A stretch of DNA of 64,000 nt from contig CALDEM010000006.1 in the NCBI GenBank assembly GCA_937942435.1, positions 84,565-148,564 on the forward strand. The letters run 5' to 3'. The DNA is from an uncultured Saprospiraceae bacterium. Lineage in GTDB: Bacteria > Bacteroidota > Bacteroidia > Chitinophagales > Saprospiraceae. Made by a program: the position numbers and the translations under genes. Below, piece by piece: positions 39,817-47,494 of this stretch; position 1 is the stretch's first letter, and the number at the start of each line of letters is the position of its first letter. The notes under the pieces were generated by a model, which was not told the DNA's origin, made no database searches, and was given only the letters and a program-made list of their open reading frames with translations.

Positions 39817-40602
39817 TTAAGTTAGTACTGGTGCATGAAGTATACCACCATCATTGACCAATACTGAGCCGGTCATATATGAAGAAGCTTCACTTGCCAA
39901 AAACACAGCAAGTCCTGCCATCTCATCTGGCATAGCCATTCTGCCCAAGGGGATGTTCTTTTTGAATTTTTTCAAGTTTTCTTCATCTGCCCATAGAGCT
40001 GTACTCAACTTTGTTTTTACCAATCCTGGGCAGATTACATTGACTCGGATATTATCCTTGCCCCATTCTGCAGCTTGGTTTTGAGCCAACATAACGAGAC
40101 CTGCTTTACTAAGATTGTATGCAGCAAATCCTGCAGTTGCATGTAGTCCTTCAATCGAGCTAATGTGGATCACACTTCCTCCCCCAACAGCCTTCATATG
40201 AGGATACGCCAACTTGCTCAACTCCATCGGAGCATTGAGGTTGATGTCCATCGTTTTTTGATATGCTGCTGCTGGCATCTGTTCTATTGGGCCAAAGTAT
40301 GGGTTGGTACCCGCATTGTTAATGATACAATCTATACGACCATATTTTTCAATTGTCTTTTCGATTAGATTAACGCGTTGTTCCTCTTGAGCAACATGAC
40401 ATGCTATACCAACAGCTTCAAGTCCATCTGACTTAAATCCTTCTGCTACTTCCTCTACAGCTTCTTGTTTCCTACTACTGATCACTACACTTGCACCATG
40501 TTCGGCTAAACCTCTCGCCATTGCCTCTCCTATACCTTTACTTGCACCTGTTATAATCGCAACCTTTCCCTCCAGGTTAAATAATGATTTGATCCTTGTC
40601 AT
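39817..40602 (-). CDS. Short-chain dehydrogenase/reductase (SDR)
   Basis: Classical SDR of 261 residues. Cofactor loop TGASKGIGEAMARGLAEHGASVVISSRK, with Ser-Arg-Lys after strand 2 suggesting NADP(H). NNAGTNP and the active site SSIEG...AAYNLSKAGL follow. The family includes DHRS4-like carbonyl reductases and 2,4-dienoyl-CoA reductase relatives; the position next to a dienoyl-CoA isomerase makes a lipid substrate plausible, but it is not proven. It follows the MBL-fold gene by 18 bases. Confidence 0.87.
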   Translation of the reverse strand: MTRIKSLFNLEGKVAIITGASKGIGEAMARGLAEHGASVVISSRKQEAVEEVAEGFKSDGLEAVGIACHVAQEEQRVNLIEKTIEKYGRIDCIINNAGTNPYFGPIEQMPAAAYQKTMDINLNAPMELSKLAYPHMKAVGGGSVIHISSIEGLHATAGFAAYNLSKAGLVMLAQNQAAEWGKDNIRVNVICPGLVKTKLSTALWADEENLKKFKKNIPLGRMAMPDEMAGLAVFLASEASSYMTGSVLVNDGGILHAPVLT

Positions 40603-40620: not shown

Positions 40621-41658
40621 TTATTCTATAATGTAAAGGTCTCCGTCTTCAGCTAGAAGCACAGAACCTTCATAAACTTCATCAAGATCTGGAGCATAGA
40701 ATCTTCTACTGATCGGATTTTCTGGTGCTGGACCTAGATGTGTTAATATCAACTTTTTCGCTCCAGCTGCAGCAGCTACTTCCGCCGCCTCTCTTGGACT
40801 GGTATGATAATCTAATATGTCAGTGAGGATAGTGGTTCCTCTTCTATTATTATTTTCTTTTTGGATCGCAATAGCTCTTTTTATTAAGTCAAATGCTAAA
40901 GCTTCATGAAGAAGTATATCAGCGTCCTTAGCATACTTGACAACTTGGTCTGATCGCTTAGTGTCACCACTGATGACAAGGGACTTTCCTTTATACTTGA
41001 TTCTATAGCCTAAAGCAGGGCTGATGGGTTCGTGATCTACTGCAAATGCCTCTACAGTCACTCCTCCTTGATCATAAACTTTTTGATAACCCATGGCATC
41101 GAGTGTTATCGTATGACTCACTGGCAAAGCCATGGCGATATCAAAAAACTCATCTCCATGATGGTCCACTCGAAATTGATTTTCAATCCCCATAAACTGT
41201 GACATGCCTTGGACGATTGTATCCAACGGATCTGGACCGTGGAGATGTATAGGATTTGTCCTTCCTATTAACCAACTTCGATTGATCAACTCTGGTAAGT
41301 CTATATAGTGGTCCGCATGCCAATGAGTTATAAAGATTCTTTCTAATTGATCCATCGGAAGCCTTAAGCTCTCTATCGCTCTTGATGCACCTGGCCCTAC
41401 ATCAAATACAAAGAACTTGCCTCCGACAAAAACAGCGTTGCACGATCTAACTCTTTCACCTGGCAAAGGAGATCCTGTCCCAACCGTCACTAACTTGATA
41501 TCGTCGTTATCCTCAAGCAGGTCTGTTCTAAAGCTCAACGCGTCAGATTGTCTACTGATAAATCGGTCGACTAGTTTCTCCTGATTTATAAATGCAAATA
41601 CTCCGACAAATATTAAAAGGAGAAATAGGACCAAAAGTATATAGGATAATTTCTTCAT
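40621..41658 (-). CDS. Membrane-anchored metallo-beta-lactamase fold hydrolase (RNase Z-like)
   Basis: A 345-residue MBL-fold protein with an N-terminal signal anchor (LSYILLVLFLLLIFVGVFAFI). The metal motif is THWHADHYIDLPEL, with GTGSPLPGERVRSCNAVFVGG at the start of the domain, FDVGPGASRA, LVISGDTKRSDQVV and LILTHLGPAPENPISR, an order shared with RNase Z and the arylsulfatase-like MBL group. The membrane anchor and probable extracytoplasmic location argue against tRNA processing and for a hydrolase of small esters or lactones. It begins right after the terminator of the fad operon, so it heads a separate unit with the SDR and isomerase genes. Confidence 0.85.
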   Translation of the reverse strand: MKKLSYILLVLFLLLIFVGVFAFINQEKLVDRFISRQSDALSFRTDLLEDNDDIKLVTVGTGSPLPGERVRSCNAVFVGGKFFVFDVGPGASRAIESLRLPMDQLERIFITHWHADHYIDLPELINRSWLIGRTNPIHLHGPDPLDTIVQGMSQFMGIENQFRVDHHGDEFFDIAMALPVSHTITLDAMGYQKVYDQGGVTVEAFAVDHEPISPALGYRIKYKGKSLVISGDTKRSDQVVKYAKDADILLHEALAFDLIKRAIAIQKENNNRRGTTILTDILDYHTSPREAAEVAAAAGAKKLILTHLGPAPENPISRRFYAPDLDEVYEGSVLLAEDGDLYIIE

Positions 41659-41725: not shown

Positions 41726-44014
41726 TTAATAACCTAACTGAGCATACACTTTAGCAAGTGTATCTTTTTTAAGGTCATCTACTGTTGCTTCTATACCTAT
41801 AGAGTTTGCATAAGCGACTAACTCAGGTTCTAACATAGACCCAATCTCAGATTTGCTCTTAGCGCTCTTACCATATTCGTGGATAGACTTCCCATCTTTT
41901 GCAAAAGCTCTAAGGCTATCAGGCACTGAGAATCTGTTGCCAAATCTCTTAGTAAAATCATCACACTCTGATATGAATGTGTCCATACCTACATAGTCGA
42001 TATAGGACAAGGCTCCACCTGTGTAGATTGGAAATCCAAATCCCATAATACTTCCGATATCTCCATCCTTAGTTGAAGTCAATACACCTTCATCAAGACA
42101 TCTAAATGTCTCCAAAGCCATACGATGTAGCATACGCTTTCCTACTGTCTCTTTGTCCAAAGTCTCAACATCTGACTTAAATATAGTCTTGAGTTCAGGC
42201 CACAATCTCTTCTTACCTTTCTCTGGATAATCGTAGAAGCCTTTGCTATTCTTCTTGCCATGACGACCGTGATCATCTACAAGCATCTTGCCGATTTTAT
42301 AAAATCTATCTTGCTCAGGAAGCTTGTTAGGACTCGGATCACTTTCGTAAACGAGGATACCTAATGTCAGTGATACTTCATCAGTCACTGCAAGAGGACC
42401 AACTGGCATACCCTTCGTCTTAGCAACGTTTTCTATCATAGCAGGTGGCACTCCTTCTTCCAGCATAAACACGCCTTCAGAACAATATGTACCAAACGTC
42501 CTTGAAGTAAAGAACCCTCTACTATCATTAACAACGATCGGTGTCTTTCTAATTGAAACAACATAATCAATTGCTGCTGCTATAGCTCTATCATTTGTTT
42601 TTTCACCAACGATGATCTCTACAAGAGGCATCTTATCTACTGGTGAGAAAAAGTGAATACCGATAAAATTTTCTGGTCTATCTGAAGCCTTCGCCAAAAG
42701 CGTAATTGGAATAGTCGACGTGTTAGATGCGTATACCTTGTCAGCTTCAAGAACAGCTTCTGTCTGGGCTGTAACTTTTGCCTTCAATTCTGGATTTTCA
42801 AATACCGCTTCTATCACCATATCACAACCTTTAACCGCATTGGGATCGTCAGTTGCATGGATTCTGGCAAGTACAGCATCCGCTTTTTCTTGCGTCATCT
42901 TACCTCTACTCACTCTCTTTTTGAGTAGAGCTGTACTATAAGATTTTCCTTTCTCAGCACCTTCCATCGTTACATCTTTCAGTACGACATCCATACCTGA
43001 TAGTGCAGATACATAAGCGATCCCCGCTCCCATCATACCCGCGCCAAGGATTCCTAATTTCTTGATTTCATACTTGTCAAAACCAGCTGGTTTTGCTTTT
43101 CCTTTGCTTGCATCTTGGATCGCGAAGAAGCCTGTACGGATCATGTTTTTAGCTTCTTTAGACATGATCACTTTCGTGAAATATCTAGCCTCAATCTCCA
43201 ACGCTCTGTCAAACTTCACTTGGATGCCATCGTGGATAACACTCAATATCGCGCCTGCTGCTGGATAGTTACCATGTGTTAGTTTACGCACGTTGCCAAT
43301 TCCTCCAACCATCGTCTGAACTCCGTTAGGTGTAAACAATCCACCACCTGGTATTTTATGCTTTCTGTCATCCCAAGGCTGCACAGCGCTAGGTGTCTCC
43401 ATCAACCACTTCTTAGCAGCTGGTATCAACTCCTCTTGGGTATCAATAGTCGCATGGATCAGTCCAGCAGACTTTGCTTTAGCCGGTGTGTAGTTGGTTC
43501 CTTGAAGGATAGCCATCATCGCTGGCTGCAGTCCCATCAAGTAAGGTGCTTTGGCGGTACCTCCACCACCTGGGAAAAGTCCAACTTTTATCTCTGGAAA
43601 TCCAATCTTAGTCTTTGGATTATCCACCGCTATTCTGTGGTGACAACAAAGACAAACTTCTAATCCACCACCAAGAGCATGACCATTGATCGCTGCGACA
43701 AATGGCTTGCCACCTGTCTCTATGTCCCTCATATGCTTGTGCATCATAAGTGAGTTCTGATAAAAGGCTTCTGCATCCGTAACCTCTTTTTCTAACATCT
43801 TTAGATCAGCTCCAGCCATAAACATACGACGCGAAGAAGTGACGATGACACCTTTAACTTTATCGTCTGCAATCGCTTGTTTCGTTACGTCAAAGAATGT
43901 TTCCATGAAGTCCGGGCTAAAAAGATTAGCCGGATGGTCTTCCATATTGATTGTGATCAGTCCGATACCATCGGCATCTATGTCGTATGAAAGGATTTTA
44001 TTTTTAAATGACAT
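41726..44014 (-). CDS. fadJ: Bifunctional enoyl-CoA hydratase/3-hydroxyacyl-CoA dehydrogenase
   Basis: Two steps of beta-oxidation on one chain (762 residues; FadB/FadJ about 715-730). The hydratase part, residues about 1-200, has SRRMFMAGADLKML, GHALGGGLEVCLCCHHRIA and FPEIKVGLFPGGGGTAKAPYLMG, with both catalytic Glu present (GLEV, FPEI). The dehydrogenase part starts near residue 318, KLGILGAGMMGAGIAYVSAL, with IHFFSPVDKMPLVEIIVG and the C-terminal domain pair. It follows the thiolase gene by 49 bases, forming the alpha and beta subunits of a fatty-acid oxidation complex. The symbol is by similarity: fadB versus fadJ cannot be told apart. Divergent TetR upstream probably controls the pair. 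Confidence 0.92.
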   Translation of the reverse strand: MSFKNKILSYDIDADGIGLITINMEDHPANLFSPDFMETFFDVTKQAIADDKVKGVIVTSSRRMFMAGADLKMLEKEVTDAEAFYQNSLMMHKHMRDIETGGKPFVAAINGHALGGGLEVCLCCHHRIAVDNPKTKIGFPEIKVGLFPGGGGTAKAPYLMGLQPAMMAILQGTNYTPAKAKSAGLIHATIDTQEELIPAAKKWLMETPSAVQPWDDRKHKIPGGGLFTPNGVQTMVGGIGNVRKLTHGNYPAAGAILSVIHDGIQVKFDRALEIEARYFTKVIMSKEAKNMIRTGFFAIQDASKGKAKPAGFDKYEIKKLGILGAGMMGAGIAYVSALSGMDVVLKDVTMEGAEKGKSYSTALLKKRVSRGKMTQEKADAVLARIHATDDPNAVKGCDMVIEAVFENPELKAKVTAQTEAVLEADKVYASNTSTIPITLLAKASDRPENFIGIHFFSPVDKMPLVEIIVGEKTNDRAIAAAIDYVVSIRKTPIVVNDSRGFFTSRTFGTYCSEGVFMLEEGVPPAMIENVAKTKGMPVGPLAVTDEVSLTLGILVYESDPSPNKLPEQDRFYKIGKMLVDDHGRHGKKNSKGFYDYPEKGKKRLWPELKTIFKSDVETLDKETVGKRMLHRMALETFRCLDEGVLTSTKDGDIGSIMGFGFPIYTGGALSYIDYVGMDTFISECDDFTKRFGNRFSVPDSLRAFAKDGKSIHEYGKSAKSKSEIGSMLEPELVAYANSIGIEATVDDLKKDTLAKVYAQLGY

Positions 44015-44063: not shown

Positions 44064-45266
44064 TTATACTCTTTCGATAATTGTAGCGATACCCATACCA
44101 CCACCGATACAAAGTGTCACAAGTCCTGTGCCCTTACCTTGTCTCTCCATCTCATCAATCACTGTACCCATCAACATACATCCAGTTGATCCAAGTGGGT
44201 GCCCTAAAGCGATAGCTCCACCATTAACATTGACCTTATCATGAGGAACACCAAGATCTTGCATCGCTCTCAATGGTACTACTGCGAATGCTTCATTGAT
44301 CTCCCACAAGTCAATATCTCCTACTTCCATGCCTACTTTCTTCAGAGCCTTACGACATGCAGGTGCTATACCTGTTAACATCATAGTTGGGTCTGTACCC
44401 ATCACACCGACTGACTTTATCCTTGCTCTTGGCTTCAACCCAAGTTTCTTTCCAACAGCTTCACTACCAACAAGAGCAAGTGATGCTCCATCAACTATGG
44501 CAGATGAGTTACCTGCGTGATGTACGTGATCTATAAACTCAACTTCTGGGTATTTATCTAATGCAACTGCGTCAAAACCACCCATCTCGCCGATCATGGC
44601 AAATGAAGGCTGAAGTCCTGAAAGAGTTTCTACAGTGGTACCAGGTCTTACATTCTCATCTTTCGTGAGCATGGTGATACCATTTACGTCAGTGACATTG
44701 ATTCTTGACTTAAACAAGCCAGCTTGCTCAGCCGCTAAAGCCCTTCTCTGTGATTCTGCAGCAAATGTGTCAACATCGTTTCTGCTAAACCCATATCGAG
44801 ACGCGATCAAATCAGCTGATACACCTTGTGGTATAGCATGACCTGGAAGCGCCACAGCTGGATCCATCATAAGTGCTCCTCCGTCAGAGCCCATCTTCAC
44901 ACGGGACATACTCTCTACTCCGCCAGCAATCAAAAGCTCTGAGAAGCCTGACTTGACATAAGCGGCCGCTTGATTAATTGATTCTAACCCTGATCCACAA
45001 AATCGATTGAGTGTTACGCCACATAGGTGGTCTCCATATCCAGATTGCTGCGCCGCTGTCTTTGCGATGTTGGCTCCTTGGTCCATCACTTGAGTAACAC
45101 AACCTAAGATGACGTCCTCTACCAACTCAGGATCAAAACCATGCTTAGCTCTTAGTTCTTTTAAGACTTGAGTTACAAGATGTGTCGGAGTCACGGTGTT
45201 AAGCGCTCCTTTCTTATTGCCCTTTCCTCTTACAGTTCTAATGGCATCATAGATATAGGCTTCCAT
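44064..45266 (-). CDS. fadA: Acetyl-CoA C-acyltransferase (3-ketoacyl-CoA thiolase)
   Basis: Last step of beta-oxidation: cleavage of 3-ketoacyl-CoA by CoA. At 400 residues it has the catalytic Cys in NRFCGSGLESINQAAAYVKSG, the His in NVNGGAIALGHPLGSTGCML and the second Cys in LVTLCIGGGMG. INEAFAVVPLRAMQDLG is also typical. FadI is an equally possible name. It is first in a two-gene unit with the bifunctional enzyme, transcribed from a promoter whose start is followed by a perfect 20-base palindrome, probably the TetR operator. Confidence 0.93.
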   Translation of the reverse strand: MEAYIYDAIRTVRGKGNKKGALNTVTPTHLVTQVLKELRAKHGFDPELVEDVILGCVTQVMDQGANIAKTAAQQSGYGDHLCGVTLNRFCGSGLESINQAAAYVKSGFSELLIAGGVESMSRVKMGSDGGALMMDPAVALPGHAIPQGVSADLIASRYGFSRNDVDTFAAESQRRALAAEQAGLFKSRINVTDVNGITMLTKDENVRPGTTVETLSGLQPSFAMIGEMGGFDAVALDKYPEVEFIDHVHHAGNSSAIVDGASLALVGSEAVGKKLGLKPRARIKSVGVMGTDPTMMLTGIAPACRKALKKVGMEVGDIDLWEINEAFAVVPLRAMQDLGVPHDKVNVNGGAIALGHPLGSTGCMLMGTVIDEMERQGKGTGLVTLCIGGGMGIATIIERV

Positions 45267-45368
45267 AATTATAATTTTTGTTCTTTCTTAATTATTTAGT
45301 CAGGTGTGTTAATTACACGAGTCTTGTAAGTAACAAGATTCGCAACCGATGGTTTTTGTGTTTTGCCT

Positions 45369-45388
45369 TATTGGCACATTTGCCAATA
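45369..45388. promoter_or_regulatory. Palindromic operator 1 (TATTGGC-N6-GCCAATA)
   Basis: A perfect 7-6-7 inverted repeat. It lies just downstream of the predicted thiolase transcription start (-7 box at 45400-45407), where a bound dimer would block initiation or elongation. A second copy of the same core precedes the divergent TetR gene, so the regulator is probably that TetR protein. Confidence 0.7.
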
Positions 45389-45399
45389 GATCAAGTCAT

Positions 45400-45431
45400 C
45401 AAATGTAAAGCATTAAAGTGACTATGCGCAA
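45400..45431 (-). promoter_or_regulatory. Predicted promoter of the thiolase operon
   Basis: Minus strand reads TTG, 21 bases, TACATTTG, an exact fit to the Bacteroidota -33/-7 consensus. Initiation is expected near 45393, about 130 bases before the thiolase ATG, immediately ahead of operator 1. Confidence 0.6.
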
Positions 45432-45521
45432 GACTTTATTGTGTTTTGTGCTTATCAATCAAAACATTATTAAAGATTGAAAGTTGGGTTATTGTCACAA
45501 ATGCTGCATATTGCGCATTAT

Positions 45522-45537
45522 TTGGCATTTTCGCCAA
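45522..45537. promoter_or_regulatory. Palindromic operator 2 (TTGGC-N6-GCCAA)
   Basis: Second copy of the operator core, ending 18 bases before the TetR ATG. It overlaps a weak -7-like TTATTTG at 45518-45524, so binding here would repress the regulator's own gene. Spacer length (six) equals that of operator 1. Confidence 0.68.
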
Positions 45538-45555
45538 TAACCTGAATAGATAAGT

Positions 45556-46248
45556 ATGGAAACGACACTTACCTCTAACACAACAAAAAATCCTCGTCAA
45601 GGAAACAACAATATTAAGAGGAAGCCAGGAAGACCTACGGCAGATGCGGAGATCAACATCGAGCACTTGTGTGATGTAGCAGTTAATATATTTGCTGAGA
45701 AAGGATATTCAGGTACAACGACCACTGAGATCACTAAGAAGGCAGGTGTAGCCAGATCTTTGATTCACTATTACTTTGGGAACAAAGAAGAGCTTTGGAA
45801 GGCTTCAATCAAGAGATTAGCCAATGAGTTCATCACACAATTTGAGCAATCAAAGAAGATTCACAAGGATCTTGATGGCGTGCAGATGATCAAAGTTGTC
45901 ATCAGACAGTTGGTTCACTTTTACGCTAAGTACCCTGCATTTCCTAAGATAGTTGCTCAAGAGATGGATGAGCATTCTGAAAGAAGTGAGTGGATCATCA
46001 CTAACTTAATCTATCCATTATTCAACTTAACTGGAGAGCTCTTCAAAAAGCAGAGGAAGATTGGCAATGTCAAAAGAATCAATAAGGAGTTTCAACCCAG
46101 CCTACTAATGGGTATGGCCAGCAGTTTTTTTTCAAACCCTTACTTGATAAAGCATCTATACGATGTCGATACTAATGATGAAGAAGTGATAGAGCGATAT
46201 GCCGATGCGGTGGTGGAGATATTCTGTCATGGGTTTGTGGCTCGATAG
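45556..46248 (+). CDS. TetR family transcriptional regulator of the beta-oxidation operon
   Basis: A 230-residue TetR regulator with a basic N-terminal extension of about 30 residues. The DNA-binding domain is about residues 35-80: CDVAVNIFAEKGYSGTTTTEITKKAGVARSLIHYYFGNKEELW, with helix-turn-helix TTTEITKKAGVARSLIHYYF. The ligand domain (residues 90-230) is helical and could bind an acyl-CoA, as FadR-type TetR proteins do. It is divergent from the thiolase operon with two identical palindromic cores in the 289-base gap. I infer repression of fad genes and itself, relieved by acyl-CoA. No other regulator lies nearby. Confidence 0.88.
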   Translation: METTLTSNTTKNPRQGNNNIKRKPGRPTADAEINIEHLCDVAVNIFAEKGYSGTTTTEITKKAGVARSLIHYYFGNKEELWKASIKRLANEFITQFEQSKKIHKDLDGVQMIKVVIRQLVHFYAKYPAFPKIVAQEMDEHSERSEWIITNLIYPLFNLTGELFKKQRKIGNVKRINKEFQPSLLMGMASSFFSNPYLIKHLYDVDTNDEEVIERYADAVVEIFCHGFVAR

Positions 46249-46320: not shown

Positions 46321-46734
46321 ATGCGCAAAATCGAACACATAGGCATAGCAGTTAAAGATCTGTCCAACGCAGATCAAGTCTATGAGCAACTACTAGGTGT
46401 AGCTCCTTATAAGCACGAAGAGGTCAAGAGCGAACACGTAACCACATCTTTTTTTAGAGTAGGCCCTAATAAAATCGAGTTGGTACAATCTGATCATCCC
46501 GATAGCGCCATATCCAAGTTTATTGAGAAGAGAGGCGAAGGATTACATCATATTGCATTTGACGTTCCCGATATCCGCGCAGAGATGAGTCGACTCAGAG
46601 AGCTTGGATTTCGATTGCTCAGTGAGGAGCCAAAGAAAGGTGCAGACAACAAACTCATATGCTTTGTACACCCCAAATCTGCCAATGGCGTCTTGATAGA
46701 ACTTTGCCAGGAGATCCCTACAGATGCAGCTTGA
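46321..46734 (+). CDS. mce: Methylmalonyl-CoA epimerase
   Basis: Glyoxalase-fold enzyme that interconverts (R)- and (S)-methylmalonyl-CoA, linking propionyl-CoA to succinyl-CoA. The 137 residues are usual. It starts RKIEHIGIAVKDLSNADQVYEQLLG with the first metal His; EGLHHIAFDVPDI has the second, and GVLIELCQE the final Glu. It is the first of a plus-strand operon; the next gene overlaps by 11 bases. The place next to the beta-oxidation region fits breakdown of odd or branched chains. Confidence 0.93.
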   Translation: MRKIEHIGIAVKDLSNADQVYEQLLGVAPYKHEEVKSEHVTTSFFRVGPNKIELVQSDHPDSAISKFIEKRGEGLHHIAFDVPDIRAEMSRLRELGFRLLSEEPKKGADNKLICFVHPKSANGVLIELCQEIPTDAA

Positions 46735-47494
46735 CACATCGACGATCATTATAGCGATCTTGGGTGGCTTATTAGCAGGTGTTGTTAACACACTCGCAGG
46801 AAACGGTTCAGCCATCACCTTGAGCATCATGACTGAGATCATCGGGCTTCCGCCAAATGTGGCCAACGGCACCAATCGAGTCGGAGTGTTATTGCAATCC
46901 TGGTCATCGAGTTACTCATTCTACAAGAATAAAAAGATTGATTTGGCTCAAGCCAAATGGCCGATCATATCTGCAACCATTGGGGCAGTCAGTGGTGTAA
47001 TAGTAGCAATCAATGTATCCAATGAAGCCTTTCAGACAGTATTCAAGTACTTGCTAGTGGTGATGTTCTTCGTGATTCTGATCAAGCCAAAACGCTGGCT
47101 AAAGAATCAGGACATTACCATCATCAATCATCCACTTGCCTTACCCATGTTCTTCTTGCTTGGCTTTTATGGCGGATTTATACAAATGGGTATGGGCATA
47201 GTATTCTTGGTGGTAACAGTGCTCATACTCAAGTACGACCTTATCTCAGCTAATGCCTTAAAGACAATCATAGTCGCAGTATACACTTGCATAGCTGTTG
47301 CGATGTTTCATAACAGTGGATTGATAGACTGGAAGGTAGGTCTTACTATAGGCGCGGGCCAAGCAGTTGGAGGCTATCTTACAGCAGAGTTCGCTTCTAA
47401 ATATCCTTCTGCCCAATATTGGGCCTATGGACTACTTATTGTTATGGTGCTTCTTGCCATATTAAGCACCTTTGGTATCTTAGAGCATAGCTGA
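46724..47494 (+). CDS. TauE/SafE family membrane transporter
   Basis: An eight-helix inner-membrane protein of 256 residues in the TauE/SafE (sulfite exporter-like) family. Two related halves are visible: ILGGLLAGVVNTLAGNGSAITLSIM near the start and LPMFFLLGFYGGFIQMGMGIVFLVV in the second half, each with the Gly-rich signature. Family members export sulfite, sulfoacetate or other organic anions; the substrate here is unknown. Overlaps the epimerase gene by 11 bases, so it is translated with it; an exporter for a carboxylate is an idea only. Confidence 0.87.
   Translation: MQLDTSTIIIAILGGLLAGVVNTLAGNGSAITLSIMTEIIGLPPNVANGTNRVGVLLQSWSSSYSFYKNKKIDLAQAKWPIISATIGAVSGVIVAINVSNEAFQTVFKYLLVVMFFVILIKPKRWLKNQDITIINHPLALPMFFLLGFYGGFIQMGMGIVFLVVTVLILKYDLISANALKTIIVAVYTCIAVAMFHNSGLIDWKVGLTIGAGQAVGGYLTAEFASKYPSAQYWAYGLLIVMVLLAILSTFGILEHS

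Follow-up and report, generated by a model that had tools for sequence, protein, structure and literature searches.

Two matched palindromes in the intergenic spacer between a tetR gene and a divergent thiolase operon of an uncultured Saprospiraceae bacterium are most likely operators of the adjacent TetR protein, which would act as an autoregulated repressor of beta-oxidation with a regulon of three promoters and with acyl-CoA as the most likely release signal (a probability of roughly 0.87). The sites, their conservation, a third site at an acyl-CoA dehydrogenase gene and, in sister genera, an operator and a recognition helix that have changed together were observed, and from these we infer binding, the sign of repression and the ligand.

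The analyzed DNA, called the window below, is the whole 64,000-nt stretch between positions 84,565 and 148,564 of the forward strand of contig CALDEM010000006.1 (assembly GCA_937942435.1; own genome, G000, 3.74 Mb). A spacer of 289 bp (45267–45555) separates the leftward thiolase gene from the rightward tetR (45556–46248, + strand), the gene of the proposed repressor, a 230-aa TetR-family regulator recognized by Pfam TetR_N (4e-15) and TetR_C_9 (9e-10). The first gene of the divergent operon encodes an acetyl-CoA C-acetyltransferase (thiolase; 44064–45266, − strand), scoring 622 bits with NCBIfam PRK08242 (cut-off 514), and is followed by a fused FadJ/FadB-like enoyl-CoA hydratase/3-hydroxyacyl-CoA dehydrogenase (41726–44014, − strand), whose best model, FadJ, gives 552 bits, under its cut-off. 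Further genes on the − strand encode an MBL-fold hydrolase (40621–41658) and an SDR-family oxidoreductase (39817–40602), both also linked in the genomes G083 and G042, and a second crotonase-type ECH is also present downstream. On the other side, downstream of tetR, the window harbors a TauE-family-like permease gene (46724–47494).

The earlier note had described matched palindromes with the same core and spacer about 150 bases apart, and their sequences and coordinates proved exact. The putative operator 1 (op1), TATTGGCACATTTGCCAATA (45369–45388), was given as TATTGGC-N6-GCCAATA and is more aptly seen as two perfect 8-bp arms flanking four bases, TATTGGCA-CATT-TGCCAATA; the putative operator 2 (op2), TTGGCATTTTCGCCAA (45522–45537), conforms to TTGGC-N6-GCCAA and starts 151 bp from the start of op1. 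No other match to TTGGC-N6-GCCAA, whether exact or with one mismatch, exists in the window, where 1.53 one-mismatch matches are expected, so this loose count is not significant window-wide; both, however, are exact and reside within one 289-bp spacer. Upon dinucleotide shuffling of the spacer, a repeated 5+5 palindrome with the same arm and the same gap arose in 84 of 5000 shuffles, and one with a G+C-rich arm in none of 5000. Genome-wide, the exact motif is encountered nine times in G000 (about one per 400 kb), including the two copies in the tetR/thiolase spacer; of the others, six are situated inside ORFs and one in a terminator-like hairpin (L006), which argues against a chance origin of op1 and op2.

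Conservation in related genomes, named beforehand as the test on which the proposal might fail, strongly bore it out. Eight genomes were compared, i.e., six species of the home genus together with G042 and G147 of a second genus, and all six as well as both of the latter carry op1 and op2 in matching positions; the TetR of G042 is 77% identical to that of the window. When the six genus members are compared, all 20 arm positions are invariant, as opposed to 35 of the 269 positions in the rest of the spacer (Fisher p = 1.5e-16). Further exact copies of the motif looked at in G083 and G042 fall in coding sequence, in terminator-like sequences or at the edge of a gene, and they are not shared.

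As read from the sequence, the thiolase operon possesses a Bacteroidota-type promoter on the − strand (45400–45431) composed of TTG (45431–45429), a spacer of 21 nt and TACATTTG (45407–45400); its −7 box is kept in all six genus members and its −33 TTG, with the same spacing, in four of them. The TAnnTTTG type of −7 box represents the sigma-A pattern reported for flavobacteria (PMC9723704). Op1 is located about 12 nt downstream of this box, which starts 20–22 nt ahead of the operator core in the six genus members; if transcription is assumed to start about 7 nt past the −7 box, op1 would lie a few bases into the thiolase transcript, in agreement with its described position right after the predicted start of the operon. 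The tetR promoter is weak (45492–45524, + strand), being formed by TTG (45492–45494), 22 nt and ATTATTTG (45517–45524); a sigma-70-like match is listed at this promoter, and its spacing recurs in G083. Op2 overlaps the −7-like ATTATTTG, as anticipated, and terminates 18 nt before the tetR ATG (across the eight genomes, the distance to the start codon is 13–19 nt). Hence, the description of both sites as adjoining an excellent −33/−7 promoter holds for op1 but not for op2, which overlaps the weak one.

A genome-wide search for the motif, suggested as a check, revealed a new beta-oxidation target. Allowing one mismatch, few sites were retrieved from the eight genomes and one of them was recurrent: a slightly imperfect AATTGTCACANACGCCAAWT-like sequence about 45–120 bp upstream of an unlinked gene for a 605-aa protein with all acyl-CoA dehydrogenase domains, present in 8/8 genomes (the six genus members, G042 and G147). 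Each of the six genus members also has a half-site GCCAAT about 25 bp ahead of it. The third site overlaps the −33 region of the dehydrogenase promoter, the −33 element of which is poor. It is absent at the dehydrogenase of the sister genera where the promoter is readable; thus, this part of the regulon appears to be lineage-limited. A weight matrix built from 22 sites was also run over 206 kb from 57 loci that contain acyl-CoA dehydrogenase or AMP-binding genes, and its sole match was the third site at the 605-aa dehydrogenase; nothing above 12 bits was detected at promoters of AMP-binding (fadD-like) or other acyl-CoA dehydrogenase genes within the 1.5-kb flanks scanned, a range that distant operon promoters could escape.

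Other candidates for membership in the regulon were rejected. In three genomes, the other exact copies of the motif that were inspected occur in ORFs, terminator-like hairpins or unconserved places, and the additional exact or one-mismatch sites near genes of a PlsC-like acyltransferase (L113), a DoxX-like protein (L114), a TauE-family protein (L115) and an aspartokinase-like protein (L111) were each confined to one genome. The L115 site, in G121, is a perfect intergenic copy, ATTTGGCAAAAATGCCAATA (L115:2985–3004), upstream of an ORF followed by the TauE-family permease gene.

The region between the third site and the dehydrogenase start codon bears another palindrome, TTTACTC-NN-AGTAAAG or ACTCAGAGT (L106:2967–2984, with counterparts in L107, L110, L122 and L127 and, in clade B, in L130, L132 and L133), which is kept more widely than the TTGGC site. 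A different TetR gene is situated close by in the genus (L106:3832–4521, recognition helix GITKVTLYSYFDSKENL) and its product may bind this palindrome; if so, the acyl-CoA dehydrogenase gene would be under two regulators.

The linkage of tetR, thiolase and FadJ extends to more distant TetR orthologues within the family. In three species of g51 and one of g20, a TetR of 38–43% identity is encoded divergently from thiolase-FadJ, and these loci carry a single TTGACA-N4-TGTCAA palindrome of the same geometry with one base changed per arm. Their recognition helices read GITRSS, NITRST or GISRTS followed by NYHFG, and that of the home clade reads GVARSLIHYYFG; ARSLIH and TRSSIN are corresponding helix residues of the two clades. 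The helices of both clades have an Arg in common (ARS, TRS, SRT), which is lacking from the other homologues tabulated (ADS, ANS, ATS, etc.), and those other homologues also lack both operator motifs. Since the operator and the recognition helix have changed jointly in the sister genera, the operator can be tied to the adjacent TetR, and this joint change constitutes the best sequence evidence that this protein is the likely binder. Two TTGAC sites from other places in the sister-genus genomes were looked at; that of L124 falls within an ORF and that of L125 at the edge of one, and neither site is near beta-oxidation genes. Where further Saprospiraceae have a TetR close to thiolase-FadJ, long A+T-rich palindromes were encountered, namely TTAATTGAATTTAAATTCAATTAA, TTAATTAAGTGAATACTTAATTAA and TTTTATTAAGTTACTGCTTAATAAAA (L033:5372–5395, L037:5656–5679 and L039:6193–6218), suggestive of further operator types at the same position.

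The protein belongs to the TetR family by both of its domains (TetR_N 55.6 bits, cut-off 24; TetR_C_9 39.2 bits, cut-off 25.3), its predicted fold (pLDDT 84, ten helices) is close to the RutR and FadR structures, and the palindromic operator in the own and the divergent promoter, a trait of this family, is represented by two conserved putative sites in 8/8 genomes. The top structure matches of the model are an uncharacterized Novosphingobium protein and RutR. Comparison with Bacillus FadR, including the stearoyl-CoA complex 3whc, yielded TM 0.65/0.77; this fold is common to many TetR proteins whose ligands differ. The self-regulating switch proposed in the earlier note is supported by the conserved sites and the dehydrogenase target, and the protein is FadR-like in fold and proposed role, but it does not qualify as a Bacillus FadR equivalog (NF053878, 41.8 bits vs. 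a cut-off of 200).

A TetR dimer would bind each TTGGCA-N4-TGCCAA-like site. On op1, just past the thiolase-fadJ transcript start, it would block RNA polymerase; on op2, it would cover the tetR −7 box, providing autoregulation; and the third site would place the first step of beta-oxidation under common control with the operon. The repressor would be released by an intermediate of the pathway, for which an acyl-CoA is the most likely candidate. Operators at beta-oxidation promoters are a trait of acyl-CoA-responsive repressors, and putative sites are present at thiolase-FadJ and acyl-CoA dehydrogenase in 8/8 genomes. An alternative, rather unlikely though the strongest of those considered, is that the TetR does bind these sites, with a different thioester as its signal (branched-chain, aromatic or dicarboxylic acyl-CoA), and serves as a switch for another CoA pathway instead of general fatty-acid degradation. 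The downstream MBL hydrolase, SDR oxidoreductase and second ECH would fit such a role, as would a TetR that is not a FadR equivalog; on the other hand, the conserved targets, the fused FadJ-type protein and the acyl-CoA dehydrogenase, are the core of beta-oxidation.

Activating TetR proteins exist, and the poor −33 element overlapped by the third site could hint at an activator, or a dual regulator, at some of the sites. This is improbable, given that op1 follows a good promoter and op2 overlaps a −7 box, placements typical of repression. Joint action of op1 and op2 via DNA looping, raised in the earlier note, seems similarly improbable: the start-to-start distance is 149–153 bp in the six genus members, but it amounts to 250 and 254 bp in the second genus, out of helical phase with the first, and the sister genera have one site only, so a conserved, helically phased spacing was not found in this set. 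Finally, an origin of the palindromes by chance or from mobile repeats, to which the abundance of one-mismatch matches might point, is hardly credible for exact sites whose position is kept in eight genomes within an otherwise diverged spacer and with no family of dispersed intergenic copies.

Compared with known systems, the putative repressor resembles Bacillus FadR (PDB 3whb, 3whc, 5gpc) in its TetR-family fold and its role beside beta-oxidation genes, and differs from it in sequence (about 20% identity, and a score well below the equivalog cut-off) and in the divergence of tetR from thiolase-fadJ. FadR of Sulfolobus acidocaldarius, a TetR-family beta-oxidation repressor released by acyl-CoA, has only four sites in the genome, and its own promoter carries an operator (PMC6449355); the family, the beta-oxidation targets and the (here putative) own-promoter operator are shared, whereas the archaeal protein governs one clustered 30-kb region (PMC6449355) and the acyl-CoA dehydrogenase target found here is unlinked. 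In Proteobacteria, the TetR-family proteins PsrA and FadP, whose role in regulating fatty-acid degradation was reconstructed from comparative genomics, control on average about 11 and about 18 genes per genome (PMC5343134), i.e., larger regulons in a different phylum, and the Vibrio PsrA model gives 42 of 300 bits here, far under its cut-off. Most commonly, TetR regulators are encoded near their target and in divergent orientation (PMC3511530); the present locus shares this arrangement, albeit with a 289-bp spacer instead of one under 200 bp and with two sites, one per promoter.

Beta-oxidation genes have been reported as regulated in Flavobacterium psychrophilum (PMC9723704). In the open-access literature searched (subscription papers being outside the scope), no TetR-type regulator of fatty-acid degradation has been described for Bacteroidota, in keeping with the view that such regulators are poorly known in this phylum. 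Overall, judging from the sequence, a real, conserved and self-regulating TetR operator system for beta-oxidation, of a known kind but in a poorly studied phylum, seems to be at hand. It offers a specific regulator with a precise motif and three target promoters, and also a series of naturally occurring operator/helix variants. The odds are about even for a broader reading: the protein would be a Bacteroidota regulator of fatty-acid degradation non-orthologous to FadR, PsrA and FadP, whose operator (TTGACA-N4-TGTCAA vs. TTGGCA-N4-TGCCAA) changed, in either direction, together with the helix, with the operon neighbor retained, and one branch of which gained a second local operator and the unlinked dehydrogenase. 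If true, this would make it a traceable case of joint operator–regulator change and of regulon growth.
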